The translations under genes and the position numbers were made by a program. A stretch of DNA of 55,164 nt from Acidobacteriota bacterium (lineage in GTDB: Bacteria; Acidobacteriota; UBA6911). Shown in pieces: positions 1-14,041 of the stretch. Under the pieces are notes generated by a model. That model saw nothing but the letters and a program-made list of their open reading frames with translations, did no database searches and was not told the DNA's origin. The stretch spans positions 1 through 55,164 of the forward strand of contig JAAYCX010000091.1 in the NCBI GenBank assembly GCA_012729555.1, written 5' to 3'. Every line of letters begins with the position of its first letter. The stretch's first letter is position 1.

Positions 1-128
1 CCGTCGCAAAAGCAGTCTCGACTGCCGCCTGCTCTGCTTCACCGGAAAGGCAAAAGCTCTATAGGGTTTAATGCCCATTACTTGACAGGTCGTTCCATAT
101 CAGGAGTGCGCCCTGCCGGGCGCACCGC

Positions 129-163
129 AAAAAAAAGGGCGCGCCGGCGCCGGCGCGCCCTTT
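129..163 (-). terminator. Rho-independent terminator of the beta-barrel gene
   Basis: Positions 134-163 form a perfect 30-nt palindrome of G and C flanked by AAA/TTT. Read on the minus strand it is followed by a run of eight T (complement of A129-136), the layout of an intrinsic terminator 25 bp after the stop codon of the minus-strand gene. A second perfect hairpin (8-bp stem, 4-nt loop) lies just beyond at 106-125. Positions 1-105 hold no gene that I can see; a TTGACA at 82-87 has no convincing -10 partner. Confidence 0.85.
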
Positions 164-187
164 CGCTTGTGCGATTCGGAGCCGAGG

Positions 188-1036
188 CTAGAAGCTGATC
201 ACCACGCCGAAGGAGAGCTTGACGTTGTTGAACCGGCTGGACGGGGCCTTATGGCTGTAATATTCCATGTAGTCCCGGCTGTAGTCGCCGTCTTCCTCTT
301 CGCGGCCGACGAAGGCGGCGTCATAGGTGAGCTTGTCCCAGGTCGGGAGGTAATCCACCTGGATCAGGCGGATGGCCGCATGCTTGCCCGCCTTGACGTC
401 GAGGCCGCCGCCCAGCGCCATGGCGAAGGACGTATCCCCCTCGATCTTCCCGCTGACCTTTCCGGTATACTCGTACCAGTCGGTCACGGTCCCGTCGTAC
501 CCATACTCGTAGCTGTAGTCGTAAGCCACGTCCAGGTCGTCCGCTTTGACCTTGGTGAAGCCGAAAAGGGCATGGGCGAAGGGGCGGACCTTCGAGTTGC
601 CGCGGTAGCTGAACTCGGGGCCGACCATGCCGGTGTACCTGCGGTAATCGGCCTTCCCGGCCCAGGACTCCTCGCGGTCCTGCTGGTAATTATTGTATTC
701 GTTGTAGTCGTAGTCGTAGGCGTAGCCGTAGTTGGCCGCGTTCTCGAGGTCCACCTTGCCTATGTGGGTGCTGAAGTTCCCCTTGATCCCCAGCCAGGAG
801 TTGAGGTTGCGCGTCAGGGACACGTCGAAGCCGTGGACCATGCCGCCGTTGGTCCCTTCGTTGAGGCGGGCGAAATCCACGTCATAGTAGTAGTAATTCA
901 TGTTCTGACCGCCGCCGTCCATGTCGGCGTTCAGCACGGAGTACCCGCCGAAGACGTCCCATTTCGGGAAATCCTGGGCTGGGGCGGCGCCGGCAACCGC
1001 CGCCATCATCACCGCTGCCAGTAAAAGTTTTTTCAT
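188..1036 (-). CDS. Outer-membrane beta-barrel protein, tyrosine-rich
   Basis: 282-residue predicted outer-membrane barrel. A Sec signal peptide is clear: MKK, a hydrophobic alanine/leucine core, then APA before Gln21. The mature part has alternating hydrophobic/polar strands and aromatic girdles and ends in SFGVVISF, a terminal phenylalanine as recognised by the BAM complex. It resembles the OmpA-like porin_2/OMP_b-brl class, without a C-terminal OmpA peptidoglycan domain. Two loops are unusually rich in Tyr, Asp and Asn (about residues 46-55 and 103-120), with a third Tyr-rich stretch near residue 170. A GGAAAGGAA motif lies upstream of the ATG. It stands alone, with its own terminator. No specific function can be assigned; a surface-exposed or adhesive role is only a guess. 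Confidence 0.8.
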   Translation of the reverse strand: MKKLLLAAVMMAAVAGAAPAQDFPKWDVFGGYSVLNADMDGGGQNMNYYYYDVDFARLNEGTNGGMVHGFDVSLTRNLNSWLGIKGNFSTHIGKVDLENAANYGYAYDYDYNEYNNYQQDREESWAGKADYRRYTGMVGPEFSYRGNSKVRPFAHALFGFTKVKADDLDVAYDYSYEYGYDGTVTDWYEYTGKVSGKIEGDTSFAMALGGGLDVKAGKHAAIRLIQVDYLPTWDKLTYDAAFVGREEEDGDYSRDYMEYYSHKAPSSRFNNVKLSFGVVISF

Positions 1037-1217
1037 CGTTAGCTGTTCCTTTCCAGGTTGAGTTGTGTCGCGAAGTTGAATAGTTGAGTCGCTTCAGAAT
1101 TATGTTTCCGCCAGAGTCCGCTTTCCGCTGGGGACGCCCCTGCTCCCGCCGGGCGACCCTCAAGGTTTACTTTTCGGCAGACGTCCGCGGAACAGCAGAA
1201 AAATCCTCCGCGAACGC

Positions 1218-1254
1218 AAAAAAAGCAGCTCCTGAACGGGGTTTCCCGTTCAGG
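1218..1254 (-). terminator. Intrinsic terminator after the SDR/DUF169 pair
   Basis: Positions 1231-1240 and 1245-1254 form a perfect 10-bp stem with a GTTT/AAAC loop. On the minus strand it is followed, after AGCTGC, by seven T (A1218-1224). It lies about 60 bp downstream of the SDR stop codon, and between that gene and the separate upstream region of the barrel gene. Confidence 0.75.
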
Positions 1255-1313
1255 CTGGTGAGAATATACAGGTGCCGCGGGCGGGCGGCAAGGGGGGTGT
1301 CATTTTTTTCGCC

Positions 1314-2120
1314 CTAACCTACGAGCAGGATGCCGCCGTCGTGCACGATGACGGTGCCGGTGATCTGGTTCCCCGCCGGGGAGGAGAGGAAGACGCAGAG
1401 AGCGCCGATCTCGATCGGTTCGGCGAAACGGTGCATCGGCATGTGGTTTTCGAACTTTTCCAGGGCGTCCGGGGGGAGGTCCTTGTCCAGGTCGGAGTGG
1501 GTCGGGCCGGGGGCGACGGCGTTGACCCGGATGCCGTGGTCGCCGAAGTCGAGGGCCATGTTGCGCGTGAACATGTCGAGGGCCGCCTTGGAGGCGTGGT
1601 AGGGGGGCATCGGGTGGGTCTTGGCCCCGCCGAGGGCCTGCCCCCCCACCGAGGAGATGTTGATGATGCTCCCCCCCCGCCCCGCGCGGATCATGTGCGG
1701 CGCCACCTCGTAGATCACGTAGGCGGGGCCGTTGAGGTTGGTGTTGATGACGCGGCGCCATTCCTCCAGGTCCCTGTCCTCGAGGAAATCACCGACGGTG
1801 GAGACCCCGGCGTTGTTGACCAGCACGTCGACGGCGGGAAAGCGCCGGAAGACCTCGGCCACGGCCCCCTTCACGCCCGGGAGGTCGCCCACGTCGCAGG
1901 GGACGCAGAAGCAGTCGGTCCCGTATTGCCGGAGGTCCGCGGCGGCCCGGTCCCCGCTTTCGCGGCTGCGGCAGAGGAGGGCCACGTTGGCCCCGCTTTC
2001 GGCGTAGGCCCGGCTGATTCCCAGCCCGATGCCCCGGTTGCCGCCGGTGACGATGACGTTGAGGCCCTTTACCGAAAAGGCGTCCTTCATGCTCGCGATG
2101 GGGGTCGTTTTGATCACCAT
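1314..2120 (-). CDS. Short-chain dehydrogenase/reductase (SDR)
   Basis: 268-residue classical SDR, an NAD(P)-dependent oxidoreductase with a Rossmann fold. The cofactor motif TGGNRGIG is at residues 25-32, NNAG at 102-105, the catalytic Ser in NISS near 156, and YHASK with Tyr174 and Lys178. The PG motif (VAPGPTHSD) follows, as expected. An AAAGGAAA Shine-Dalgarno precedes the ATG. The N-terminus (MVIKTTPIASMKDAF, then the first strand) looks like sugar-alcohol or 3-oxoacyl-ACP-reductase-like SDRs, so the substrate is not predictable. It is the second gene of a two-gene unit, 51 bp after the DUF169 gene. Confidence 0.88.
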   Translation of the reverse strand: MVIKTTPIASMKDAFSVKGLNVIVTGGNRGIGLGISRAYAESGANVALLCRSRESGDRAAADLRQYGTDCFCVPCDVGDLPGVKGAVAEVFRRFPAVDVLVNNAGVSTVGDFLEDRDLEEWRRVINTNLNGPAYVIYEVAPHMIRAGRGGSIINISSVGGQALGGAKTHPMPPYHASKAALDMFTRNMALDFGDHGIRVNAVAPGPTHSDLDKDLPPDALEKFENHMPMHRFAEPIEIGALCVFLSSPAGNQITGTVIVHDGGILLVG

Positions 2121-2171
2121 GGTATTTCCTTTCCTGGTTCTTCGAAGTCCGGCCCGGCGGGGCCGGACGGT

Positions 2172-2933
2172 TCAGGCCCCGCCCGCCCGGCGCGACAGGT
2201 TGGACAGGATGCCCCCGAACTCCTCCAGGTAGGCGTCCCTGCTCCGGTGCGAGGGGAGGTGCCACGTCATGCTGCCGAGGTTGGCGGTGACCGTCGGGAG
2301 CCACTGGTGGGGGATCGTCACCAGGACCGTATCCGCGGGAAACAGTTCGCGCCCCTTCATCCCGTGCACGAATTCGGGGAGGAAGTAATTCACCCTGCCG
2401 CGCTGGAACGGATAGATGAGGGCCCACGCGCACCCCATGACCGGGGTGACGCGGGAAGCGTAGGGCTCCCCGGTGGAGTAGGTCATGGCGCGCAAGAGGA
2501 TTTCGGCCTGGGGGGGGTCCGCGGCGAAGACCGTGACGTCGGGTTCGAAACCGGCCCGGTCCAGGCGGGAGAAGACCACGTAACGGACGACGCCCCGGTC
2601 GAACCGCGGCACGTGCCGGTACAGGGCGTAATTGGCCCGCGCCTCCTCGAACACCCCGAGGTGCTCCCCGATCTGCCCGCTTTCTGCGAACGGCTCCATC
2701 GCCTGCATCCCCAGCAGGATCCTCCCCACGCACGTTTCCTCGTGCCCGGGGCCGAAATAGAACGGCTCCGGCGCCCGCCCGGCCTCCCGCACCATCTCGC
2801 ACAGCGAGAGGGTTTTTTCGGGCGCCAGCGGACGCACGTTTTCCGGCTGGAAATGCTGGAACTTGACGGCCACCGGGGAATGTTCGAAACGAAACTTCCC
2901 GTAAATGGACAGGTCGGTCTGCAGCGGCTTCAT
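2172..2933 (-). CDS. DUF169 family protein
   Basis: 253 residues resembling the DUF169 (COG2043) family: an N-terminal segment with SPVAVKF, a CEMVREA stretch with a conserved cysteine, GHEETCVGR near residue 65, and a central segment with MTYSTGEPY and MGCAWAL. The family is common in anaerobic Deltaproteobacteria and archaea, and its function is unknown. It has several conserved cysteines and no signal peptide, so a cytoplasmic metal- or cofactor-associated role is conceivable but unproven. A GGGAGGGGGTG ribosome binding site lies directly upstream of the ATG. It is the first gene of the unit with the SDR downstream, and a LysR gene lies further upstream on the same strand. Confidence 0.8.
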   Translation of the reverse strand: MKPLQTDLSIYGKFRFEHSPVAVKFQHFQPENVRPLAPEKTLSLCEMVREAGRAPEPFYFGPGHEETCVGRILLGMQAMEPFAESGQIGEHLGVFEEARANYALYRHVPRFDRGVVRYVVFSRLDRAGFEPDVTVFAADPPQAEILLRAMTYSTGEPYASRVTPVMGCAWALIYPFQRGRVNYFLPEFVHGMKGRELFPADTVLVTIPHQWLPTVTANLGSMTWHLPSHRSRDAYLEEFGGILSNLSRRAGGA

Positions 2934-3044
2934 CGCACCCCCTCCCGGGATGGCTCCTTTCTAACATATCCGCCGTCGGCGACGCAAATGGAGGTTGATC
3001 CCGGGGGGCGCGGGGTTTTCGCCCGCGATCGCAGGGGGCGGAAT

Positions 3045-3932
3045 CTATCGGGCGCCCGCCCGCCCGGACACGAGAAAATCGGCGAAGGTCGCGCACAGGG
3101 GGGAGTGGTGCCGAAGGCGGTGGGTGATGATATGGAAGGAACGGGTGACGGGCGATCCGCTGAATTTGATCTCCTTCAGGGTCTTGCGCCTGATTTCCTC
3201 GGCGGCCGGGAGCCTGGAGATGAAGGCCAGTCCCATCCCCTCCCGGACCGCGCGGATGAGTGCCTGGGAGGAGCCCAACTCGGCCACGACACGCAGCTCG
3301 CCCAGGGGAATATTCCTCTTCTTCAGATGCTCCTCCACCGCCGCCCTGGACCCCGACCCCGTCTCGCGCATCAGGAGCGGGAGCGACCGGAGATCTTTCG
3401 TTCCCCGCGCCTCGTACCCCGGCGCCGCCACGAGCACGAGTTCGTCGTCGAGGAACCGGCGCGTGCGCAGGTTCCTGTCCTTTGTGGGGGAGCCGATGAT
3501 TCCCAGGTCGCATTCCCCCTCGAGCACGCTCCGGTGGATCTCCCCGGAATCCCCGATCCTGAGGGAGGGAAAGACCTCCGGATAGATCGCGACGAAACGC
3601 GCGAGGTGCCCCGGCAGGAGGTATTCCCCGGGGATGGTGCTCGCCGCGACCAGGAGCTTGCCGCTGACCCCGGCGCGAAGCCGTTCCATGGCATCGCGGA
3701 CGCCCTCTTTCAGGCTCAGGATTTCCCGGGCGTAGCGATAGAGAATCTCCCCCTCCCGGGTCGGCGTGATGGACCTGCCGAGACGGTCCAGCAGCCGGGT
3801 GGAGAATTCTTCCTCCAGGGCTTTGATATGAAAGCTGATCGTCGGCTGGGTGAGGTGCAGCCTCTCGGCCGCCCGCGAGAAGCTTTTCCGTTCGACGACG
3901 GCGCAGAAGATTTCCAGGTATCGCAGTTCCAC
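3045..3932 (-). CDS. LysR-type transcriptional regulator (CysL-like)
   Basis: 295-residue LysR regulator. The N-terminal winged helix-turn-helix is complete (RYLEIFCAVVERKSFSRAA, then LHLTQPTISFHIKALEEE) within residues 1-60. It is followed by the helical linker and a periplasmic-binding-protein-like effector domain (GKLLVAASTIPGEYLLP, GECDLGIIGS, RETGSGSRAAVEEHL, REGMGLAFISR). This pattern is closest to the CysL/YeiE-like subgroup, some members of which are annotated as selenium- or sulfur-linked; that link is family knowledge, not shown here. It is divergent from the ModA/NapH/NifB-like cassette and shares with it an inverted repeat that is a good LysR operator, so control of that cassette and of itself is likely. 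The effector is unknown. Confidence 0.9.
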   Translation of the reverse strand: MELRYLEIFCAVVERKSFSRAAERLHLTQPTISFHIKALEEEFSTRLLDRLGRSITPTREGEILYRYAREILSLKEGVRDAMERLRAGVSGKLLVAASTIPGEYLLPGHLARFVAIYPEVFPSLRIGDSGEIHRSVLEGECDLGIIGSPTKDRNLRTRRFLDDELVLVAAPGYEARGTKDLRSLPLLMRETGSGSRAAVEEHLKKRNIPLGELRVVAELGSSQALIRAVREGMGLAFISRLPAAEEIRRKTLKEIKFSGSPVTRSFHIITHRLRHHSPLCATFADFLVSGRAGAR

Positions 3933-3960
3933 CGGGCTCCGCCCCTCCTATTTGACGGCG

Positions 3961-4004
3961 ATCATAGCATCAATTTGACATATAGAAAAATTCTATGATA
4001 TATA
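3961..4004. promoter_or_regulatory. LysR operator within the divergent promoter region
   Basis: An ATAGAA-AAA-TTCTAT inverted repeat at 3982-3996 has the ATAG-N7-CTAT, T-N11-A layout of LysR-family boxes. It lies between a plus-strand -35 TTGACA (3975-3980) and a -10 TATATA (3999-4004, 18-bp spacer). It also sits just upstream of a minus-strand -10 TATGAT (3966-3961) for the LysR gene. The site can therefore affect both promoters. About 200 nt separate this promoter from the likely start codon of the plus-strand gene; I see no recognisable riboswitch in that leader. Confidence 0.7.
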
Positions 4005-4203
4005 AGAGGGGATATTCTCGAGGACCGCAGGATCCTTTATGACATGCAGTTTCGGTTTTACCTGACAGGGCGCATAACTGACCGGACGGGTCAGGTCGAG
4101 CCTCGTGTCGGAATCGAATCCCTTCCCGCGACGTCTGTTTTCCTCGATCCAGGACATCGATTCGACCCCATGCCATTCATGCATGCGACGGGATTGTGCC
4201 CCA

Positions 4204-5073
4204 ATGAAGAAAGACGATATGACTCATCAGCCCCTCCTGGGGCGCAGGAAGTTCCTGGCGGCCGCCGCCGGGGCGGCCGCGGGCGCCGCCGTGCCGCCCA
4301 TAACGGCCGCCGGGGAGCGCTTTCGCCGGAGCACGCTCCAGGTCTGGTCCTGCGGCGGGCTGGCGGAGGCTTTCATCCCGGCCCACGCCCGGTACAAGGG
4401 GCTCACGGGAGTGGAGGCGGCCTATACCGGGGCTTTCGCCGCGGCCCTGGGGAAATCGCTGCTGGGAGGGGCGAGCACCGAGGTCTTTGCCGGCAGGGTG
4501 CTCGCCCTGAGCCAAAAGCTGCGGGAAACCGGCAACATGATCTATTTCCGGCCCCTCTGCTTCACCCGATATGTCCTGGTGACCCCCCGGGGCAACCCGG
4601 CGGGGATTTCGGATATTCACGATCTCGCCAGGCCCGCAGTCAGGGTCATCCTGGCTCCGGAGGCCTCCCCCCCGGGAGGGGAGGCGGTCAGCGGGCTGCT
4701 GAAAAGGGCGGGTGTTTTCGAGGGTGCCATGCAGAACGCCGTCATCAAGGGGAGCTGCGTGCAGCGGACCATGGAAGACCTCGTGAAGGGGAAGGGGGAC
4801 GTGTCGGTGGTCGAACTCCGGCTCACGCGGATGCCGCCATTCAGGGGCAAGGCGGAGGTCCTTCCCATCCCCGAGGAGTTTTTCCCGCCGGGTCCCCTCA
4901 CCTTCACCATCGGCGTCATGAAGGACGCCCGGGACCGGAAACTGGCCGACCACTATCTCGATTTCATCCTCTCCGACGAGGGACAGGGGTTTTTCGCGGC
5001 CGCCGGGTTCATCCCGGCCCGGTCGGTCGAGGGGGAGCGGCTGGTGGAAAAACTGGGGGTGAAGGATGCCTAG
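4204..5073 (+). CDS. Tat-exported ModA-like (molybdate/tungstate-type) substrate-binding protein
   Basis: About 289 residues. A twin-arginine signal (GRRKFLAAAAG, then an alanine-rich hydrophobic stretch) precedes a ModA-type periplasmic binding domain: an N-terminal VWSCGGLAEAF strand/helix, then GGASTEVFAGR in place of the ModA GAPADVFAS motif, then VLVTPRGNPAGI. The C-terminal half has KGKGDVSVVEL and DFILSDEGQGFF, typical of type II binding proteins. I chose the ATG at 4204; ATG 4219 (preceded by GAAGAAAG) is equally possible and a GTG at 4105 less so. No ABC permease or ATPase follows. Instead it overlaps by 8 bp with a NapH-like membrane ferredoxin gene, suggesting it presents a ligand to that system or works as a sensor. 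Ligand identity is inference. Confidence 0.75.
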   Translation: MKKDDMTHQPLLGRRKFLAAAAGAAAGAAVPPITAAGERFRRSTLQVWSCGGLAEAFIPAHARYKGLTGVEAAYTGAFAAALGKSLLGGASTEVFAGRVLALSQKLRETGNMIYFRPLCFTRYVLVTPRGNPAGISDIHDLARPAVRVILAPEASPPGGEAVSGLLKRAGVFEGAMQNAVIKGSCVQRTMEDLVKGKGDVSVVELRLTRMPPFRGKAEVLPIPEEFFPPGPLTFTIGVMKDARDRKLADHYLDFILSDEGQGFFAAAGFIPARSVEGERLVEKLGVKDA

Positions 5074-5827
5074 GGCCTTCACGCCCGCGGCCGGGCTCAA
5101 GGGATTTCGCCGCCTGGCCCAGCTGGGCTTTCTCGCGGTGCTGGGCCAATGGTCCTTTTACGGCATCTTCCGCTGCCCCTTCATCATCCCCTACGTGAGC
5201 TGCCAGAACTGCCCGGTGATCACGTGCCACGGGAGGCTGCTCCCGATGTTCTGGGGCTTCTGGATCCTGCTCCCGCTCTCCGTCGTCGCCTTCGGCCGGG
5301 CGTTCTGCGGCTGGGCCTGCCCCGGCGGATTGGTCAGCCAGCTGCTGGGCCGGGCGGCGCCCCTGAAGACGCGGACGCGAAACGCGTTTCTGCGGATCCT
5401 TCCCCGGGCCAAATACCTCGGCCTGGCCGCCGCCCTCGGCTCGTGGTGGTTTCTGGGGCAGTCCCGGGAAAACGTCCCGATCCGGACGGGGGAGTTTTTT
5501 TCGGCCGTCGCCCTGACTTTCGAGCACGCCAACCCGGCCTGGCTGTTCCGGACCTTCTTCGTCCTGGCGTTTCTCGCCCTGGGGCTCGTGCTGGCCGGCG
5601 CCTGGTGCCGCTTCGCCTGTCCCACGGGCGGGCTGCTGGAGCTCCTCAAGCCGTTCGCGATGCTGGGGGTGTTCAAGGATGAAAAATGCGATGACTGCGA
5701 CCTGTGCCTGAAGGGGTGTGAAATGGGGACGCGCCCGGCCGAGGCCAACTGCACGAGCTGCGGCGACTGCCTGAACGCCTGCCCGCAGGACGCCATTCAT
5801 TTCGGACATCCGCGGAGGAATTCCTGA
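5066..5827 (+). CDS. NapH-like 4Fe-4S membrane protein
   Basis: 253 residues. Hydrophobic segments near residues 15-35, 60-80, 115-132 and 160-185 fit a four-helix NapH/RdxA-type membrane protein. Motifs GRAFCGWACPGG and CRFACPTGG are the conserved CxxxCP pairs of this family. The C-terminal 50 residues hold two [4Fe-4S] motifs, CDDCDLCLKGC and CTSCGDCLNACP. In known relatives the protein passes electrons from the quinol pool to periplasmic or cytoplasmic acceptors. It overlaps the ModA-like gene by 8 bp and is followed directly (TGAATG) by the NifB-like gene, so an electron supply role for the radical SAM enzyme is a reasonable hypothesis. Confidence 0.85.
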   Translation: MPRAFTPAAGLKGFRRLAQLGFLAVLGQWSFYGIFRCPFIIPYVSCQNCPVITCHGRLLPMFWGFWILLPLSVVAFGRAFCGWACPGGLVSQLLGRAAPLKTRTRNAFLRILPRAKYLGLAAALGSWWFLGQSRENVPIRTGEFFSAVALTFEHANPAWLFRTFFVLAFLALGLVLAGAWCRFACPTGGLLELLKPFAMLGVFKDEKCDDCDLCLKGCEMGTRPAEANCTSCGDCLNACPQDAIHFGHPRRNS

Positions 5828-6649
5828 ATGTCTTCCGCCATGCCGCACCCGGGATGGGAACAGCACCCCTGTTTCTCGAGCGGAGCCCGAAGCCGGTTCG
5901 GGCGCATCCACCTGCCGGTGGCCCCGGGGTGCAATATCGAATGCGCCTACTGCCGGAGGGAGTACGACTGCGCCCACGAAAACCGTCCCGGGGTCACGAG
6001 CCGGGTGATCGGGCCCGGGGAGGCGCTCGAGAGGCTGGAAAGGGCCCTCGTGGACATGCCCGGCATCGCGGTAGCCGCGGTGGCGGGGCCCGGAGATCCC
6101 TTCTGTGAGCCGGAGCGGACGCTGGAGACGTTCGAACGGATCCGGGCGAGGAATGGGAAGATCGCCCTGTGCGTCTCGTCCAACGGATTGAACGTGAAGG
6201 ACCACATCCCGCGCCTGAAGGAACTGGGGGTGGGTTTCGTGACGATCACGGTCAACGCCATCGACAGCGCGGTCGGCGCCCGGCTGCACCTTCGGGCGGC
6301 GCTGGGGGGGAGGGAATACCTGGGGCTCGAGGCGGCCGCACTGCTCCTGTCGCGGCAACTGGAGGCCGTGGCTCTCCTGAAGGAGGCGGGGATGGCCGTG
6401 AAGGTCAACTGCGTCGTCGTGCCGGGGATCAACGAGGACCACGCGGTGTTCGTGGCCGCAAGGATGGGGCGGATGGGGGTCGACCTCCTGAATTTCCTGC
6501 CTCTCCTTCCCGTCGCCGGCACGGCCCTGGAAGGTTGCTCCCCTCCCGGGGAAGCGGTCATGGGGAGGCTGCGGCATCGGGCCGGAAGGCACGTACCGCA
6601 GATGCGACACTGCACCCGCTGCCGTGCCGATGCCGCGGGAATGCTCTGA
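5828..6649 (+). CDS. NifB-family radical SAM protein (short form)
   Basis: 273 residues. The sequence follows the NifB core closely: the N-terminal HPCFS motif, the radical SAM cluster motif CNIECAYC, the conserved ENRPGV segment, SSNGLNV, VTITVNAID, VKVNCVVVPGIN, and the C-terminal CTRCRADAAG motif. In NifB these sites bind the SAM cluster and the two precursor [4Fe-4S] clusters that are fused into NifB-co. The length matches stand-alone archaeal-type NifB without the NifX/NafY-like C-terminal domain. The final part (NFLPLLPVAGT) deviates from the usual HNVMPL motif. No nifHDK, nifE or nifN lies in the window. GGAGGAA precedes the ATG. It could be a genuine NifB or a NifB-like paralogue making another iron-sulfur cofactor. 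Confidence 0.85.
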   Translation: MSSAMPHPGWEQHPCFSSGARSRFGRIHLPVAPGCNIECAYCRREYDCAHENRPGVTSRVIGPGEALERLERALVDMPGIAVAAVAGPGDPFCEPERTLETFERIRARNGKIALCVSSNGLNVKDHIPRLKELGVGFVTITVNAIDSAVGARLHLRAALGGREYLGLEAAALLLSRQLEAVALLKEAGMAVKVNCVVVPGINEDHAVFVAARMGRMGVDLLNFLPLLPVAGTALEGCSPPGEAVMGRLRHRAGRHVPQMRHCTRCRADAAGML

Positions 6650-6655
6650 ATTCGT

Positions 6656-6687
6656 GAAGGCGGACGGCCCGCGGACCGTCCGCCTTC
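6656..6687. terminator. Hairpin between convergent nifB-like and leuD genes
   Basis: A perfect 12-bp inverted repeat (6656-6667 and 6676-6687, 8-nt loop) fills most of the 50 bp between two converging stop codons. Neither side has a clear T-run, so efficiency is uncertain; position suggests a bidirectional terminator. Confidence 0.55.
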
Positions 6688-6699
6688 AAGCGGGGGAGC

Positions 6700-7191
6700 C
6701 TATTTCATCATCCCCTTGCGCACGTACTCCATGAGGCCCCCCGCCGCGATCAGTTCCTGCATGAAGGCGGGGATCGGTTTGGCGGCGTATTCGCGCCCGA
6801 GGTCGAGGTTGGTGATCTTCCCGCTCGCGGCGTCCACCCTGAGGACGTGGCCGTTTTCGGCCTCGGCCGCGACGGCGCATTCCATGATGGTCAGCCCGAT
6901 GTTGAAGGCGTTGCGGTAAAAGATGCGGGCGAAGCTTTCCGCCACCACGCACGCCACGCCGGCGGCCTTGATGGCGATCGGCGCGTGCTCGCGCGAGGAC
7001 CCGCACCCGAAGTTCTTGCCGGCCACGATGATGTCCCCCGGTTTTACCCGGGCCGGAAACGCGGGGTCCGCGTCCTCCATGACGTGGGCCGCCAGTTCCT
7101 TGGGATCGCTCGTGTTCAGGTAGCGCGCGGGAATGATCTCGTCCGTGTTGACGTCGTCTCCGAATTTGTGAATTCTGCCCTTGATGATCAC
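6700..7191 (-). CDS. leuD: 3-isopropylmalate dehydratase small subunit
   Basis: 163 residues; the small subunit of isopropylmalate isomerase, the second step of leucine synthesis after condensation, in complex with LeuC. Family signatures are [25 protein letters not shown] and the [15 protein letters not shown] stretch. The short form is typical of bacterial/archaeal LeuCD of the LeuC-420 class. I start it at the GTG at 7191, which overlaps the leuC stop (GTGA) and has a GGGGGTG sequence just upstream. Such homologues sometimes act as homoaconitase or citramalate-pathway enzymes, but no neighbouring gene points that way. Confidence 0.93.
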
Positions 7192-8486
7192 TTTTTCACC
7201 CCCACTTTCCAGTTGCTCCCCCGGACCTCTTTCGGCAGCGCCAGGCGCCCTTTGATCGCCGACGCGGCGGCGACGGCGGGCGAGGCGAGGTAGACCTCGC
7301 TCGCGGTGTGCCCCATGCGCCCCACGAAGTTGCGGTTGGTCGTGGCCACGGCCTTTTCCCCCTTCGCCAGGATGCCCATGTGGCCGCCCAGGCAGGGCCC
7401 GCAGGTCGGGGGGGAGATGACGCACCCGGCCGCCATGAAGATGTCCATCAGCCCCTCCTCGAGCGCCTGCCGGAAGACGAGGGGGGTGGCGGGCATGATG
7501 AGGGTCCGCACCCTGGGGCTCACCCTTTTGCCCTTCAGCAGCTTCGCCGCCTGGCGCAGGTCCTCGATCCGGCCGTTGGTGCACGACCCGATGACGGCCT
7601 GGTCGATGACGACGTTTCTGGCCCTGGATACCGGTACGACGTTCGAGGGGAGGTGGGGCAGGGCAACGACCGGCTCCATGCCGGTGACGTCGAACACCTC
7701 GACCCGCTCGTACTCCGCGCCGGGGTCCGACTGGTAGTAGCGCGGCTTGCGCTGCGCCCGCTTTTCGACATAGGCGCGGGTGGTGTCGTCGGGAGGGATG
7801 ATGCCGGTCTTGGCGCCCGCCTCGATGGCCATGTTGCTCATGGTCAGCCTCCCCTCCATCGACAGGCGGTCGATCACCGGCCCCGTAATCTCCAGGGCCC
7901 GGTAGTTGGCCCCTTCCACCCCCAGGCGCCCGATCGCGGTCAGGATCAGGTCCTTGCCGGTCACGTCGGCGGGGAGGCGTCCCTTGAAGATCAGTTTGAT
8001 GGTCGGCGGAACCTTGAACCAGGCCTTCCCGGTCAGCATCGCCGCGCCCAGGTCGGTCGAGCCCACCCCGGTGGAGAAGGCGCCGAGCGCCCCGTAGGTG
8101 CAGGTATGCGAGTCGGCCCCGATCATCAGGTCGCCCGGCACGACGACCCCCTGTTCGGGCAGAAGCGCGTGTTCGACCCCGACCTCCCCCTGGTCCCAGT
8201 AATAGACGAGTTTCTGCTCCCGCGCAAATTCACGCAGGATCCTGGCCTGTTCGGCCGACTGGATATCCTTGTTGGGGGTGAAATGATCGGGAACCAGGAC
8301 CACCTTTCCGCGGTGGAACACCTTCGTGCCGCCGTTCTGATAAAAGGCCTGGATGGCCAGGGGCGCGGTGATGTCGTTGCCGAGGCAGAGGTCGAGCCTG
8401 GCCAGGACGATGTCGCCCGGGCTCACGCTTTTGACGCCCGCCGCGCGCGCCAGGATCTTTTCCCCCAGGGTCATGGGTCTGGGCAT
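7188..8486 (-). CDS. leuC: 3-isopropylmalate dehydratase large subunit
   Basis: 432 residues of the aconitase family, of the shorter LeuC type (about 420 residues). Visible motifs include [13 protein letters not shown], the DHFTPNKD segment, [15 protein letters not shown], the cluster cysteine region [14 protein letters not shown], and the paired cluster ligands in [13 protein letters not shown]. The enzyme carries a [4Fe-4S] cluster and isomerises 2- to 3-isopropylmalate with LeuD. It lies between asd (80 bp upstream) and leuD (4-bp overlap), so asd-leuC-leuD are probably one transcript. Confidence 0.95.
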
Positions 8487-8566
8487 GCTTCATACTCCTT
8501 TCAATGGGTGGGCCGCCTTGCGCTGCGGCCGCAACAGGGTGCCATCCGTTCTGTGAAACGGGTGTG

Positions 8567-9682
8567 TCAACGCCCGAGGTGTCCGCGCAGGATGGCCAGC
8601 ATCCTGTGCAGGGGTTCCGCCGCTCCCCACAGGAGCTGGTCCCCCACGGAGAAGGCGGTGAGAAATCGGTCCCCCATCGTCATCTTGCGGAGGCGTCCCA
8701 CCGGCACCTCGAGGGTGCCCGAGACCGCCGCCGGGCTGAGGCGCCGGAGGGTGTCTTCCTTCGTGTTGGGGACCACGGTGACCCAGTCGTTGGCGCGCGC
8801 GATCCTGTCCTCGATCTCGTCGAGCGGGACGTCCTTTTTCAGCCTGATGGTGAACCCCTGGGAGTGGCAGCGCATGGCGCCCACCCGGACGCAGGCGCCG
8901 TCCACCGGGATCTCCCTCTCCGTGCCGAGGATCCGGTTGGTTTCGGCCATCCCCTTCCACTCTTCGCGCGTCTGGCCCCGCTCCACGGCGCGGTCGATCC
9001 ACGGGATGAGGCTGGCGGCGAGCGGCGCGCCGAACTGCCTGACCGGCAGGTCGCCGGACCGGAGGACGCCGGTCACGGCGCGGTCGAGATCGAGCGCCGT
9101 GGCCGAAGGGTCCTCGAGCACCGGCCGGACCCCGGTCGCGATCGCCGCCATCTGCGCGACCAGTTCCTGCATATTCGCGGCTCCTGCCCCCGAGGCGGCC
9201 TGGTAGGTCATCGTCGACACCCACTCCACCAGGTCGGCCCTGAAGAGGCCGTCGAGCGCCATCAGCATCAGGCTGACCGTGCAGTTGCCCCCGACGTAGG
9301 TCCGGATTCCGGCGGCCAGGGCCTTGTCGATCACCGGGCGGTTGACCGGGTCCAGGACGATGCGCGCGTCGTCGGCCATGCGCAAGGTCGACGCCGCGTC
9401 GATCCAGTAACCGCGCCATCCGGAGGCGCGCAGCTGTTTATAGACGGCGGAGGTGTACTCCCCCCCCTGGCAGGTGACGACGGCATCGAGCCGCCCGAGG
9501 GCGCCCATGTCGTAAGCGTCTTCCAGGACCGTTTCCCCCTTCCCGGCATCGGGGCCGCGGCCGCCGATGTCGGAGGTGGAGAAGAAACTGGATTCGAGGC
9601 CGGAAAACCCCTCGGTGGCGCGCATGCGCTCCATGAGAACCGACCCGACCATGCCCCGCCATCCGATGAATCCGACTCTCAC
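8567..9682 (-). CDS. asd: Aspartate-semialdehyde dehydrogenase
   Basis: 371 residues. It reduces aspartyl phosphate to aspartate semialdehyde with NADPH, the branch point to lysine/diaminopimelate, threonine and methionine. The N-terminus [18 protein letters not shown] is almost identical to the enterobacterial Asd form, and the catalytic cysteine is Cys134 in [20 protein letters not shown] holds the conserved acid/base histidine. It is therefore the long gamma-proteobacterial-type enzyme, not the short Gram-positive type. Aspartokinase, DapA and DapB of the same pathway are encoded about 9-12 kb away in this window. It is the first gene of the asd-leuC-leuD unit. Confidence 0.95.
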
Positions 9683-9841
9683 GCTTCCGTCCTCCCCCGG
9701 GCCCGCCGTCCGTCATGAGGGGCCACCGCCTTATATTAGCGTATCCGCGCCCCTCATCGCAGGGATAAAAATATTCCCGTTTCCGCCTCGTGCCGATATG
9801 ATGGGGGGCGCCCCGGGAACATCGGACGGATCGGACCTGCC

Positions 9842-10480
9842 ATGGATCAGCGTTTCGGAGAGATCGTAGAGAAAATCGACGGGCACCTCGGCCAGCACCC
9901 CAATATCTCCATACGGCTGCTGGCCGGGAAACTGGGCCTCGCCCCCGGGCGGATCGAGGAGGCGCTCGCCGCGGTCGAGGGGATCTCTTTCGAGCAGTTC
10001 CGGGAGGCGAAACGCCTCGAGCGGGCGTTCGAGCAGCTCGGCGCGCTGAGTCCCGCGGCTAACGGTCCCTACGATGTCGTCCGTGCGCGCCGCCGCCTGG
10101 CCATTCCCCGGGCCACGGTCCGTTACGGCTTCCCCTCTTTCTACCGGCGCCGCATCGGATATTCGCACCCCTGCCCGATGGTCGATCTGAGCCGTGACGG
10201 GATGGCCCTGCTGGCCGACAGCGCGGAAAGCCCCGGCCGGCGGGTGGCGCTCCTGCTGAAATTTCCGGGCGTGGAGCACGAGGCCTGCCTCGAGGGGCGG
10301 GTCGTCTACGCCGTGGCGACCGGGATCGCCGGGTACCGCTATCGCGTCGGCATCCGGTTTCTCCCTTTCGTGGCCGGCAAGGGGGGAAACGACCTCCGGG
10401 TGCTGGAGATCCTCGAGGAGATCGAGCGGCAATACGCCCCTCGGACGGGGGGGGCTAGAGCGACAGGAAGCTTTCCCTGA
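9842..10480 (+). CDS. PilZ-domain protein with N-terminal helical region
   Basis: 212 residues. The C-terminal part (about 95-200) has the features of a PilZ cyclic-di-GMP binding domain: an arginine cluster YRRR, the DLSRDGMALL motif ((D/N)xSxxG), then GRVVYA and YRVGIRF strands. The N-terminal 80 residues are helical, with LLAGKLGLAPGRIEEALAAV resembling a winged-helix/DnaA-like segment, possibly a DNA- or protein-binding region. It is divergent from asd. Its 3' end overlaps the converging phosphoesterase gene by 26 bp. A c-di-GMP-responsive role is likely; the target is unknown. Confidence 0.75.
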   Translation: MDQRFGEIVEKIDGHLGQHPNISIRLLAGKLGLAPGRIEEALAAVEGISFEQFREAKRLERAFEQLGALSPAANGPYDVVRARRRLAIPRATVRYGFPSFYRRRIGYSHPCPMVDLSRDGMALLADSAESPGRRVALLLKFPGVEHEACLEGRVVYAVATGIAGYRYRVGIRFLPFVAGKGGNDLRVLEILEEIERQYAPRTGGARATGSFP

Positions 10481-10919
10481 TCCCGAGCTCTCCGAACTCC
10501 AGGATCCCGAGCGTGGCCGATCGGTTGAACCTCAGCGGGCCGGCGCTCCCGGGATTGAAGTAGAGCACGCCGTCGCGTTTGTCGGCGCCCGCCACGTGGG
10601 AGTGCCCGTGGATCACGGCCGCCAGGTCGGCGGCGCGGGGGTGCACGTCGAGGCGGGAAAGGTCGTGGAGGACGTAGAGGCAATTCCCGGCGACCTCCAC
10701 GAGGGCGGTCTCGGGCAGGGGGCGCGCCCACGCCCCCCGGTCCACGTTGCCGCGGACGGCCGTCACGGGGGCGATCTTCCCGAGCCCCTCCAGCACCTCC
10801 GGAGCGCCGATGTCTCCGGCGTGGATGATGTGGGCGACGCCCGCGAGCGCCTCCAGCGCCTCCGGCCGGAGCACCCCGTGCGTGTCCGAAATGACCCCGA
10901 TCCTGAGGCGGCGCTCCAT
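10455..10919 (-). CDS. YfcE/MJ0936-type metallophosphoesterase
   Basis: 154 residues with the whole set of calcineurin-like phosphoesterase motifs: ISDTHG near residue 10, HAGDIG, GNVD, IHGHSH and FNPGS. This size and pattern match the YfcE/MJ0936 family of small metal-dependent phosphodiesterases, some of which act on cyclic nucleotides or model diesters in vitro. The cellular substrate is not known. It converges on, and overlaps by 26 bp, the PilZ gene, and is divergent from the flavin oxidoreductase gene. Confidence 0.9.
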   Translation of the reverse strand: MERRLRIGVISDTHGVLRPEALEALAGVAHIIHAGDIGAPEVLEGLGKIAPVTAVRGNVDRGAWARPLPETALVEVAGNCLYVLHDLSRLDVHPRAADLAAVIHGHSHVAGADKRDGVLYFNPGSAGPLRFNRSATLGILEFGELGIRESFLSL

Positions 10920-10984
10920 TTTCCCCTTCCTCCCCCCTCATTCTGCCTGCGGCTGACCGGGAACTCAACAGGCTCGATTTCCGG

Positions 10985-11012
10985 TTCTCAAGAGGATTTC
11001 TGGAGATATAAT
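10985..11012 (+). promoter_or_regulatory. Candidate promoter of the flavin oxidoreductase gene
   Basis: TTCTCA (10985-10990) and a perfect TATAAT (11007-11012) with a 16-bp spacer lie about 45 bp upstream of the ATG at 11058. The -35 is weak, so this rests mostly on the -10. Confidence 0.5.
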
Positions 11013-11057
11013 GGGGCCTCTTTGAACCCGTAACCAGTGGATCGAAAGGTGACACGC

Positions 11058-13154
11058 ATGAGCCATAGTCCCAGGTACGAAAAGCTCATGGAACCCGGCC
11101 GCATCGGGTCCGTGAAAACGAGAAACCGGATCATCAAATCGGGTGCCGGGATGCTGATGTGGCACGAGGACGACGTGCATATGCGTCCGGAGGTCCTCGC
11201 CTTTTACGAGGGGATCGCCCGGGGGGGCGTCGGGCTGCTGATCGTGGAGTCGCCCACCATCGACTACCCCCTGGGGGTGCGGTGGAAGGAACGGTACCGC
11301 ATCGACGACGACCGTTACATCCAGGGGCTCGGCGAACTGGTGGAGGTGATCCACCGGCACGGTTGCCCCACCTTCATGCAGATGAACCATGACGGTCCCT
11401 GGCAGGCGAAGCTCCCGTTCGCCCCCGAGCCCTTTTTCGAGGGGGAGCCGATCGGCGCTTCCCCGGTGACGCTCGACGCGGAGAGTGACTTCCACAACCA
11501 GGCTCCCCACGCCCTCACCGTCGAGGAGATCGAACAGGTCGTCGACAAGTTCGCCAGCGCCGCGGTCCGGGCCCGCAAGGCGGGGTTTGACGGCGTGGAC
11601 ATCAACGCCGCCAGCAGCCACCTGCTGCACAATTTCTTCTCCCCGTACTGGAACCGCCGGGAGGACGCCTACGGCGGGAGCGTGGAAAACCGGGCCCGCT
11701 TCGCCATGGAGGTGATCCGTGAAATCAAGAAGCGCCTCGGGGGTGATTTCCCGGTCTCCATGATCCTGAACGGGATCGAAATCGGCCAGGCCGCCGGCGT
11801 GGACAACCGCCGCTGCCTCACCCACGAGGACAGCCGCGCCATCGCCCGGCTGCTCGAAGAGGCGGGGGCCGACGCCATCCAGGTCCGGAGCCACTGGCTC
11901 GGCTACCACGTGGGGGCCTATCTCCCCGACGCCCTCTTCTACCCGGAGCCCCCCGTCCCGGTCGAGTCCTTCCCCCCGGAGTACGAGACCGGCCGCAGGG
12001 GGATCGGCGCCAACATCCGGCTCGCCGCCGGGATCAAGGAGGTCGTCCGAATCCCGGTCACGGTGGTCGGCCGGCTCGACGCCGACCTCGGCGAACAGCT
12101 GCTGCGGGAGGGCAAGGTCGATTTCATCGCCATGACGAGGCGGTTGCTGGCCGACCCGGAATACCCGAACAAGGTGGCCGCCGGGAAGATGGACGACATC
12201 GCCCCCTGCACCGCCTGCGACAACTGCCTGGGGAGCCGCCGCTGCAGGATCAACGGCCTGCTGGGAACCCCCTACAACACCATCGAGCCGGCGGCCAGGA
12301 AGAAAAAGGTCCTGGTGATCGGGGGCGGTCCCGCCGGGATGTCGGCCGCCCGGGTCGCCGCGCTGCGCGGACACACGGTCATCCTTTACGAGAAGGCGTC
12401 GGCCCTCGGGGGACTGCTGCCGCTCGCATCCATGGTCAAGGGGTCGCATCCGGAGGACCTGTCGCTCCTCATCCGCTATTTCGGGCGGCAGCTGAAACAG
12501 CTTGGGGTGAAGGTGGTCCTGGGGCGGGAGGTGAACCTCGGCACGGTCGAGGCGATCAAGCCGGACGTCGTGTTCCTGGCGACGGGCGGGGAGTCCGTCG
12601 CCCCCGAGATACCCGGGGCGGACGGCTCCATCGTGCTCAGCGGGGCGGTGCTCCACCGGAGGCTGAAATTCTTCCTGAAGTTCTTCAAGCCGGAGACCCT
12701 TCGAAACCTTTCGCGGTTCTACATGCCGATGGGGAAGCGGGTGATCGTCGTCGGAGGAGCCATCCAGGGGTGCGAGCTGGCCGAGTTTCTGGCCAAGCGC
12801 GGCCGGGAGGTGACGATCGTGGAGACCAAGGACTCGATAGGCGAGGGGATGGTCGACGCGCTGCTCGGGCACCTGATGATCTGGTTTGCGAAGAAGGGGG
12901 TGAAGCTCCACTGCGGCGTGCGGGAGTACGTCGGGATCAGCGACCAGGGACTGACCCTGGTCACCCGCGAGGGGGAACGGCTCACTCTCGAGGCCGATAC
13001 CATCGTATCCGCGCTGCCGCTCGGGCGGGTCGACGGGCTCCTCAAGGAGCTCGAGGAGAGGGTGCCCGAGGTGTATGCGATAGGAGACTGCAGGGAACCC
13101 CTCCTGATCGCGGACGCCATCGGCGCGGGGGTGCGCATAGCCCGCGAGGTATGA
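11058..13154 (+). CDS. NADH:flavin oxidoreductase / 2,4-dienoyl-CoA reductase-like (OYE family)
   Basis: 698 residues from ATG 11058, preceded by AGGTGA. The N-terminal half is an Old Yellow Enzyme TIM barrel (FMN), with SSHLLHNFFSP and REDAYGGSVENRARF as in FadH and related enzymes. A cysteine motif CTACDNCLGSRRC provides a [4Fe-4S] cluster. The second half has the FAD site VLVIGGGPAGMSAARVA and the NAD(P) site VIVVGGAIQGCELAEFL. This is the three-domain layout of 2,4-dienoyl-CoA reductase, trimethylamine dehydrogenase and bile-acid or enoate reductases. Substrate cannot be assigned from sequence. It stands alone with its own promoter. Confidence 0.9.
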   Translation: MSHSPRYEKLMEPGRIGSVKTRNRIIKSGAGMLMWHEDDVHMRPEVLAFYEGIARGGVGLLIVESPTIDYPLGVRWKERYRIDDDRYIQGLGELVEVIHRHGCPTFMQMNHDGPWQAKLPFAPEPFFEGEPIGASPVTLDAESDFHNQAPHALTVEEIEQVVDKFASAAVRARKAGFDGVDINAASSHLLHNFFSPYWNRREDAYGGSVENRARFAMEVIREIKKRLGGDFPVSMILNGIEIGQAAGVDNRRCLTHEDSRAIARLLEEAGADAIQVRSHWLGYHVGAYLPDALFYPEPPVPVESFPPEYETGRRGIGANIRLAAGIKEVVRIPVTVVGRLDADLGEQLLREGKVDFIAMTRRLLADPEYPNKVAAGKMDDIAPCTACDNCLGSRRCRINGLLGTPYNTIEPAARKKKVLVIGGGPAGMSAARVAALRGHTVILYEKASALGGLLPLASMVKGSHPEDLSLLIRYFGRQLKQLGVKVVLGREVNLGTVEAIKPDVVFLATGGESVAPEIPGADGSIVLSGAVLHRRLKFFLKFFKPETLRNLSRFYMPMGKRVIVVGGAIQGCELAEFLAKRGREVTIVETKDSIGEGMVDALLGHLMIWFAKKGVKLHCGVREYVGISDQGLTLVTREGERLTLEADTIVSALPLGRVDGLLKELEERVPEVYAIGDCREPLLIADAIGAGVRIAREV

Positions 13155-13222
13155 TCTTCTTTGGACTCAACCCCGCCGCCCCGGGGTGCTATGATTAGGG
13201 GTCTTGTAGAGGGGGCAGGGGC

Positions 13223-14041
13223 ATGCATCGAGTGGAAAAGGCGGTGATCATGGCGCGCGGGCTGGGGACGCGGATGCGTTCCGAGGACGGCTCCGCCCGG
13301 CTCGACCGGGGCCAGAGCTTGGTGGCCGCCGCCGGCGTCAAGGCCATGATCCCGATCGGGCGCCCCTTCCTGGATTACGTCCTGAGCGCGCTCGCGGACG
13401 CCGGCTACAGGCGCGTGTGCCTCGTCATCGGCCCCGAGCACGGGTTGATCCGGGATTATTACGAGGTCGAGTCGCCCCCCGGGAGGATCGGGGTCGATTT
13501 CGCAATCCAGGAAAAGCCCCTCGGAACGGCCGATGCCGTGCTGGCGGCCGAAAGCTTCGTCGGCGGGGACCTGTTCCTGCTCCTCAACTCGGACAACTAC
13601 TACCCGCCGGAAACCCTCGCGGCCATGGGGCGCCTGGACCGCTCCGGGATCGCGCTTTTCGAGCGGGACGCCCTGGTGGCTTCCGGAAATATCCCCGAAG
13701 AGCGCGTGCTCAAATTCGCAGTCGCGAAGACCGGCCCCGACGGTTTTCTCGAGCGCATCATCGAGAAGCCGAGTGCGGACGCCGTCCGGGAGCTGGGACC
13801 TCCGGTCCTCGTCAGCATGAACTGCTGGGTCTTTTCCCCGGCCATTTTCGAAGCCTGCCGCAGCGTCAGGCCCTCGGCGCGGGGCGAACTGGAACTGACC
13901 GATGCGGTCCAGTTCGCCATGAAGGCGCTCGGGGAGCCGATCCGCGCGCTCACCTTCCGGGATTCGGTGCTGGACCTGTCCAGCCGTTCGGACATCGCCC
14001 CGGTGGCGGAGAAATTGAAGAGCATCCAACCCAATCCCTGA
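13223..14041 (+). CDS. Sugar-phosphate nucleotidyltransferase family protein
   Basis: 272 residues of the NTP-transferase fold. The nucleotide loop is AVIMARGLGTRMR, a variant of the usual GGxGTR. It is followed by KAMIPIGRPFLDYVL, AIQEKPLGTADAVL, LLNSDNYY and RIIEKPSAD, and near the end LELTDAVQFAM. These match glucose-1-phosphate thymidylyl/uridylyl-type enzymes that make NDP-sugars, but the enzyme is shorter than most and its sugar is not predictable. AGGGGG lies upstream of the ATG. It precedes SHMT on the same strand with an 80-bp gap; no functional link is obvious. Confidence 0.8.
   Translation: MHRVEKAVIMARGLGTRMRSEDGSARLDRGQSLVAAAGVKAMIPIGRPFLDYVLSALADAGYRRVCLVIGPEHGLIRDYYEVESPPGRIGVDFAIQEKPLGTADAVLAAESFVGGDLFLLLNSDNYYPPETLAAMGRLDRSGIALFERDALVASGNIPEERVLKFAVAKTGPDGFLERIIEKPSADAVRELGPPVLVSMNCWVFSPAIFEACRSVRPSARGELELTDAVQFAMKALGEPIRALTFRDSVLDLSSRSDIAPVAEKLKSIQPNP

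Follow-up and report, generated by a model that had tools for sequence, protein, structure and literature searches.

Organization of the locus

Three same-strand genes that overlap or abut one another form a cassette at 4204 to 6649 of the window (the whole stretch of 55,164 nucleotides analyzed here), and a LysR gene runs divergently from them (Table 1). The first two genes overlap by 8 bases, and the third follows with no gap; the gene downstream of it lies in the opposite direction, and therefore the cassette ends at 6649. The reading frame of the solute-binding protein (SBP) has a longer version from a GTG at 4105, and the ATG at 4204 yields a twin-arginine signal. By eye, neither nifHDK nor an ABC permease gene was found among the open reading frames of positions 1 to 14,000, and no nap genes were seen in the neighborhood of the NapH-like gene. 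The layout is that given in the earlier note: an overlapping or adjacent triplet under a LysR regulator, with no permease or nifHDK nearby.

Table 1. Cassette genes, regulator, and candidate operator in the window
Feature	Position	Strand	Basis
SBP, Tat-exported ModA-fold protein	4204..5073	+	SBP_bac_11, structure model, 37 relatives
NapH-like membrane polyferredoxin	5066..5827	+	Fer4_5/Fer4; napH model below cut-off
Single-domain NifB-like radical SAM protein	5828..6649	+	TIGR01290, fingerprints, model, tree
LysR regulator, selenium-metabolism family, divergent from cassette	3045..3932	-	NF040786
Palindrome ATAGAAAAATTCTAT, candidate LysR operator and promoter	3982..3996		directly after TTGACA

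The regulator passes the model for selenium-metabolism LysR proteins (NF040786; 290 bits, cut-off 250) and is the best of six LysR-type matches in the genome. The same regulator is likewise divergent beside the cassette of the relative G003. The palindrome ATAGAAAAATTCTAT has one exact match in the window, with a chance of 0.21 for a match with up to two mismatches, and G003 carries TTTGACATATTGAGAATGTCTATG at the corresponding place. An operator common to all cassettes was rejected, as the likeness is only between the window and G003; matches to a wider operator motif (13, against 1.8 in shuffled sequence) were mostly AT-rich noise. Beside the LysR gene, at 2172-2933, lies a DUF169 protein with no assigned function; Lin et al. 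2015 (PMC5322559) include DUF169 among the families associated with YedE.

A conserved and apparently mobile unit

The SBP family was searched with a profile built from six SBPs, which left a clean gap: intact genes had E < 1e-100, and the remaining binding proteins did not fall below 1e-27. The family occurs in four sampled lineages: the phylum of the window (3 of 396 genomes), the Veillonella class (22 of 350, plus one degraded copy), the order of a Desulfobacula MAG (10 of 291), and the class of the deltaproteobacterial MAG behind locus L005 (51 of 348). The SBP and NapH-like genes are always present and adjoin at every locus where the contig permits; the NifB-like gene is usually present. 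In the first set, it accompanies them at 33 of 39 loci (it is missing at four, truncated at one, and cut off by the contig edge at one) and is adjacent at 9 of the 20 loci of the second set, from the G397 class, but not at the other 11. At L127, the position immediately behind SBP and NapH is occupied by a gene for a MauE-like membrane protein (10701-11225) instead of NifB.

That the triplet is a conserved module is nearly certain. The earlier note had called for a neighborhood search, and in that search the same triplet recurred in distant genomes, which rules out random neighbors. All three proteins of the relative G002 are nearest to Negativicutes-type cassettes (75, 68, and 65% identity), whereas those of the window are nearest to other lineages; since the three differ together, the cassette appears to move as a unit and to be able to pass between phyla. 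No described NifB-NapH-SBP unit was found in the open-access literature.

The exported binding protein

The SBP is, as proposed earlier, a Tat-exported protein of the ModA type. It matches Pfam SBP_bac_11 (E 4.7e-41), and its structure model (pLDDT 84.8) finds ModA and PEB3 as best structural matches. The NCBIfam modA model gives only 33 bits, under the cut-off of 62.5, and what the SBP has in common with ModA/PEB3 binding proteins is the fold. The differences lie in the binding site, in Tat export, and in the ABC permease and ATPase, which were not seen near the window by eye and are not a constant partner at other cassette loci. The two serines that bind molybdate in the ModA structures, Ser12 and Ser39 in E. 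coli, align with Gly52 and Ala79, which do not vary among 37 SBPs. All 37 also have the twin arginine and three cysteines, no more and no fewer (C50, C119, and C185 in the window), and these cysteines align with ModA positions 10, 81, and 152. Among the structure matches is a ModA double mutant, 3axf, in which positions 11 and 153 were changed to cysteines; because positions 10 and 152 adjoin that pair, it is plausible that C50 and C185 lie on opposite sides of the cleft, with C119 left unplaced.

The molybdate- or tungstate-type sensor of the earlier note is not supported by this comparison and was rejected on ligand residues, given the loss of both serines and the gain of three invariant cysteines. 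The broader proposal that the module senses or supplies molybdate or tungstate for a (seleno)formate dehydrogenase draws on the ModA fold and on formate dehydrogenase-type genes that adjoin the cassette at L005, L126, and L210. It is very unlikely, since such genes adjoin at those three loci only and the changes in the ligand residues and the lack of a permease also count against it.

The membrane ferredoxin

The second gene encodes a protein with Pfam Fer4_5/Fer4 domains that scores 52.6 bits with the napH model TIGR02163, far under the cut-off of 213. Its alignment with E. coli NapH has 12 cysteines in common, with two CxxxCP sites and two [4Fe-4S] motifs; these cluster cysteines are likewise conserved in the NapH/MauN ferredoxins and NosR. 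Unlike those proteins, the cassette family has four extra cysteines (C37, C46, C49, and C54), which are absent from E. coli NapH and invariant in 37 of 37 sequences. They lie between the first helices, before the first strongly predicted helix pair by simple hydropathy, and would be on the outer face of the membrane if NapH topology holds. The earlier description as a membrane ferredoxin stands, while its four helices were not confirmed by the hydropathy plot, which gave the strongest segments only.

The NifB-like enzyme and nitrogenase

The third protein is a Radical_SAM family member (Pfam) whose best NCBIfam match is nifB TIGR01290 (E 9.1e-82; 275 bits, cut-off 343.65). The model includes the NifX domain, which this protein lacks, and a short archaeal NifB also falls under the cut-off, at 299 bits. 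Six fingerprints define NifB: HPC, Cx3Cx2C, ExRP, AGPG, TxTxN, and Cx2CRxDAxG (Arragain et al. 2017, PMC5715403). All six are present in the window protein, in agreement with the earlier reading of a short NifB with its full motif set, and its structure model superimposes on the NifB structures 6y1x and 7bi7 with a TM-score of 0.87. The likeness to single-domain NifB thus covers fold and motifs; the differences are that nif genes are not needed, that the gene is coupled to SBP-NapH, and that it falls in separate clades. In a tree, the cassette proteins form three clades apart from the nif NifB of the same genomes. One monophyletic cassette clade was rejected, as a minimum of two label changes is required on the tree, which neither establishes nor rules out a single origin. 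A divergent subtype has the gene order NifB-SBP-NapH (L130, L131, L133, L135, and L223); in the first four of these the equivalent of Cys48, beside the radical SAM motif, is missing.

In the window genome (98.9% complete), neither a nifH match at E 1e-40 nor another NifB was found; by this measure, the organism has no nitrogenase or nitrogenase-like enzyme for NifB to serve. A regular nif cluster with another nifB, which the earlier note had named as evidence against its idea, is thus absent, and the triplet is not a random one; the favored idea is still a role in cofactor chemistry outside nitrogenase. The alternative offered with it, that the cassette is an isolated nitrogenase accessory unit or relic, has NifB homology in its favor, and 17 of the 38 cassette genomes have nifH matches that exceed the cut-off. 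However, another 17 have no nifH match at E 1e-40, including the window genome and all six Veillonella-type genomes tested, and four have sub-threshold homologs only; furthermore, the nif-bearing genomes hold further, mostly longer NifB copies elsewhere, in other clades. The cassette genomes without nif refute this alternative as a general account, and we consider it extremely improbable.

A NifB-like gene adjoins the cassette in each of the 16 assessable genomes that lack nifH and in the four whose nifH is sub-threshold, whereas five of the 17 with nifH have no intact copy (G510, G538, G788, G1010, and G1029). All five have a nif NifB elsewhere in the genome, as if the NifB-like product were needed. 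The split of 20/20 against 12/17 has a chance of about 0.014, calculated by hand; being post hoc and on related genomes, it is only suggestive of such a dependence. A different view is that the functional unit consists of SBP and NapH alone, acting as an outward electron conduit or as a redox sensor, with NifB a frequent, non-essential partner. This would fit the constant adjacency of the first two genes and the patchier occurrence of the third, but it is unlikely, given that cassettes without the NifB-like gene occur, in the first set, only in genomes with a nif NifB and that NifB-like residues are under strong constraint. At L212, L213, L215, and L216, where the SBP-NapH pair is not adjoined by a NifB gene, there is a long-type nifB at a distance of about 7 kb.

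Linkage to selenium genes

In G003 the cassette is followed by YedE (seleno_YedE, 488 bits, cut-off 200) and then by a cysteine desulfurase of the EF2568 type that resembles the selenocysteine lyase SclA closely. Across related loci the neighbors are YedE, an EF2568/SclA-like lyase, YedF/SirA, a Se/S carrier, SelD, and a double-cubane reductase with its activase. L121 has an unbroken same-strand run of ten genes: YedE, SirA, YedF, SclA-like, Se/S carrier, double-cubane reductase, activase, SBP, NapH, and NifB. The distance between YedE and the SBP is at most 6 kb in 18 of 28 genomes, where 0.12 would be expected (uncorrected for relatedness), and in 13 of 23 if the Veillonella-type genomes count as one. 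Within the Negativicutes-type class, YedE is present in 22 of 22 cassette genomes compared to 4 of 18 others (p 1e-7) and SelD in 21 of 22 compared to 8 of 18, both likewise uncorrected for relatedness; dropping six Veillonella-type genomes leaves YedE in 16 of 16. Selenium genes occur at 17 of 23 Negativicutes-type loci, and both same-genus relatives are selenium-linked, one by the double-cubane reductase and activase only.

The linkage is strong in some lineages and weak in others. A selenium gene is found within about 10 kb at only 2 of 20 loci of the G397 class and at 2 of 10 loci of the Desulfobacula-order sample, where YedE is no commoner in cassette genomes than elsewhere (4 of 11 versus 6 of 15). 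At the window locus itself, the LysR gene is the only selenium-type link; YedE and selD are on other contigs of the genome than the cassette. The SelD gene of this organism (L139 9576-10508, genome contig C9) contains an in-frame TGA and probably encodes a selenoprotein.

These observations argue for a role of the cassette in selenium metabolism, to which we assign a probability of about 0.75. The anaerobic selenium gene clusters of Lin et al. 2015 (PMC5322559), with YedE, YedF, DUF3343, and LysR, have the same neighbors and the same regulator family; their text makes no mention of a radical SAM protein, a ferredoxin, ModA, NapH, or any solute-binding protein. At L115 and L125, and partly at L117, genes for a URO-D corrinoid methyltransferase, a B12-binding protein, and a RACo-type activator directly precede the cassette. 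These genes resemble the mlp clusters for which Kountz and Balskus (PMC10418091) proposed a part in methyl-selenide metabolism; the same paper lists double-cubane proteins with selenium genes and leaves NifB, NapH, and a substrate-binding protein unmentioned.

A role in handling reduced sulfur (thiosulfate or polysulfide) in place of selenium would be in keeping with the sulfur relatives of YedE/SirA-type proteins, with TsuA as a weak second match, and with most cassette lineages being, as it appears, anaerobes from sulfur-rich environments. It is quite unlikely, since the neighbors pass selenium-specific models, i.e., seleno_YedE (at more than twice its cut-off), YedF, SelD, and LysR_Sec.

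A possible mechanism

The cassette is probably part of an undescribed route for selenium reduction or uptake, often in anaerobes that do not fix nitrogen. We tentatively propose, at somewhat less than even odds, an anaerobic selenium module consisting of an electron conduit, a cluster-bearing SBP, and a NifB-like cluster supply. The NapH-like protein would pass electrons across the membrane to its extra outer-face Cys4 site, the simplest chain being from cytosolic ferredoxins or quinol to the NapH-like clusters, the outer Cys4 site, and the SBP. In the SBP cleft, cysteines would stand in place of the oxyanion site; since Tat exports the protein in a folded state, a metal cluster or bound cofactor may travel with it, which the NifB-like enzyme would make or start. 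The SBP would then bind and reduce oxidized selenium species outside the membrane, and YedE and the selenium carriers would bring the reduced selenium to SelD.

The most specific form of this proposal is a NifB-type iron-sulfur-carbide (or related) cluster in the exported three-cysteine SBP, driven by the trans-membrane ferredoxin for selenium reduction or capture, as a dedicated acquisition system of anaerobes. We regard it as a speculative and rather doubtful extension of the selenium module, and the presence of the standard NifB product in an exported protein as slightly more doubtful still. The NifB-like enzyme could instead build the cluster of the neighboring double-cubane [Fe8S9] reductase rather than that of the SBP; the reductase, its activase, or both adjoin the cassette at L040, L121, L125, L126, and L128, but most cassettes, including that of the window, have no such gene nearby, and we give this version little credence.

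Reviews of 2022 and 2026 (PMC9312934 and PMC13188914) state that prokaryotes have no known specific, high-affinity system for selenium uptake, and a cassette that lies by selenium genes and encodes an exported, cysteine-lined SBP is a concrete candidate for one. If the selenium module is as proposed, NifB chemistry would operate without a nitrogenase-type partner, which would bear on the origin and spread of the nitrogenase cofactor pathway.

Another region of the window

Between 38400 and 51000 of the window, the G+C content falls from about 0.67 to 0.55. By eye, this stretch resembles a type I restriction-modification region, with HsdS, HsdM, and HsdR-like genes, together with ATPase, RNA-ligase-like, and helicase/primase-like genes, and it is probably a defence island.
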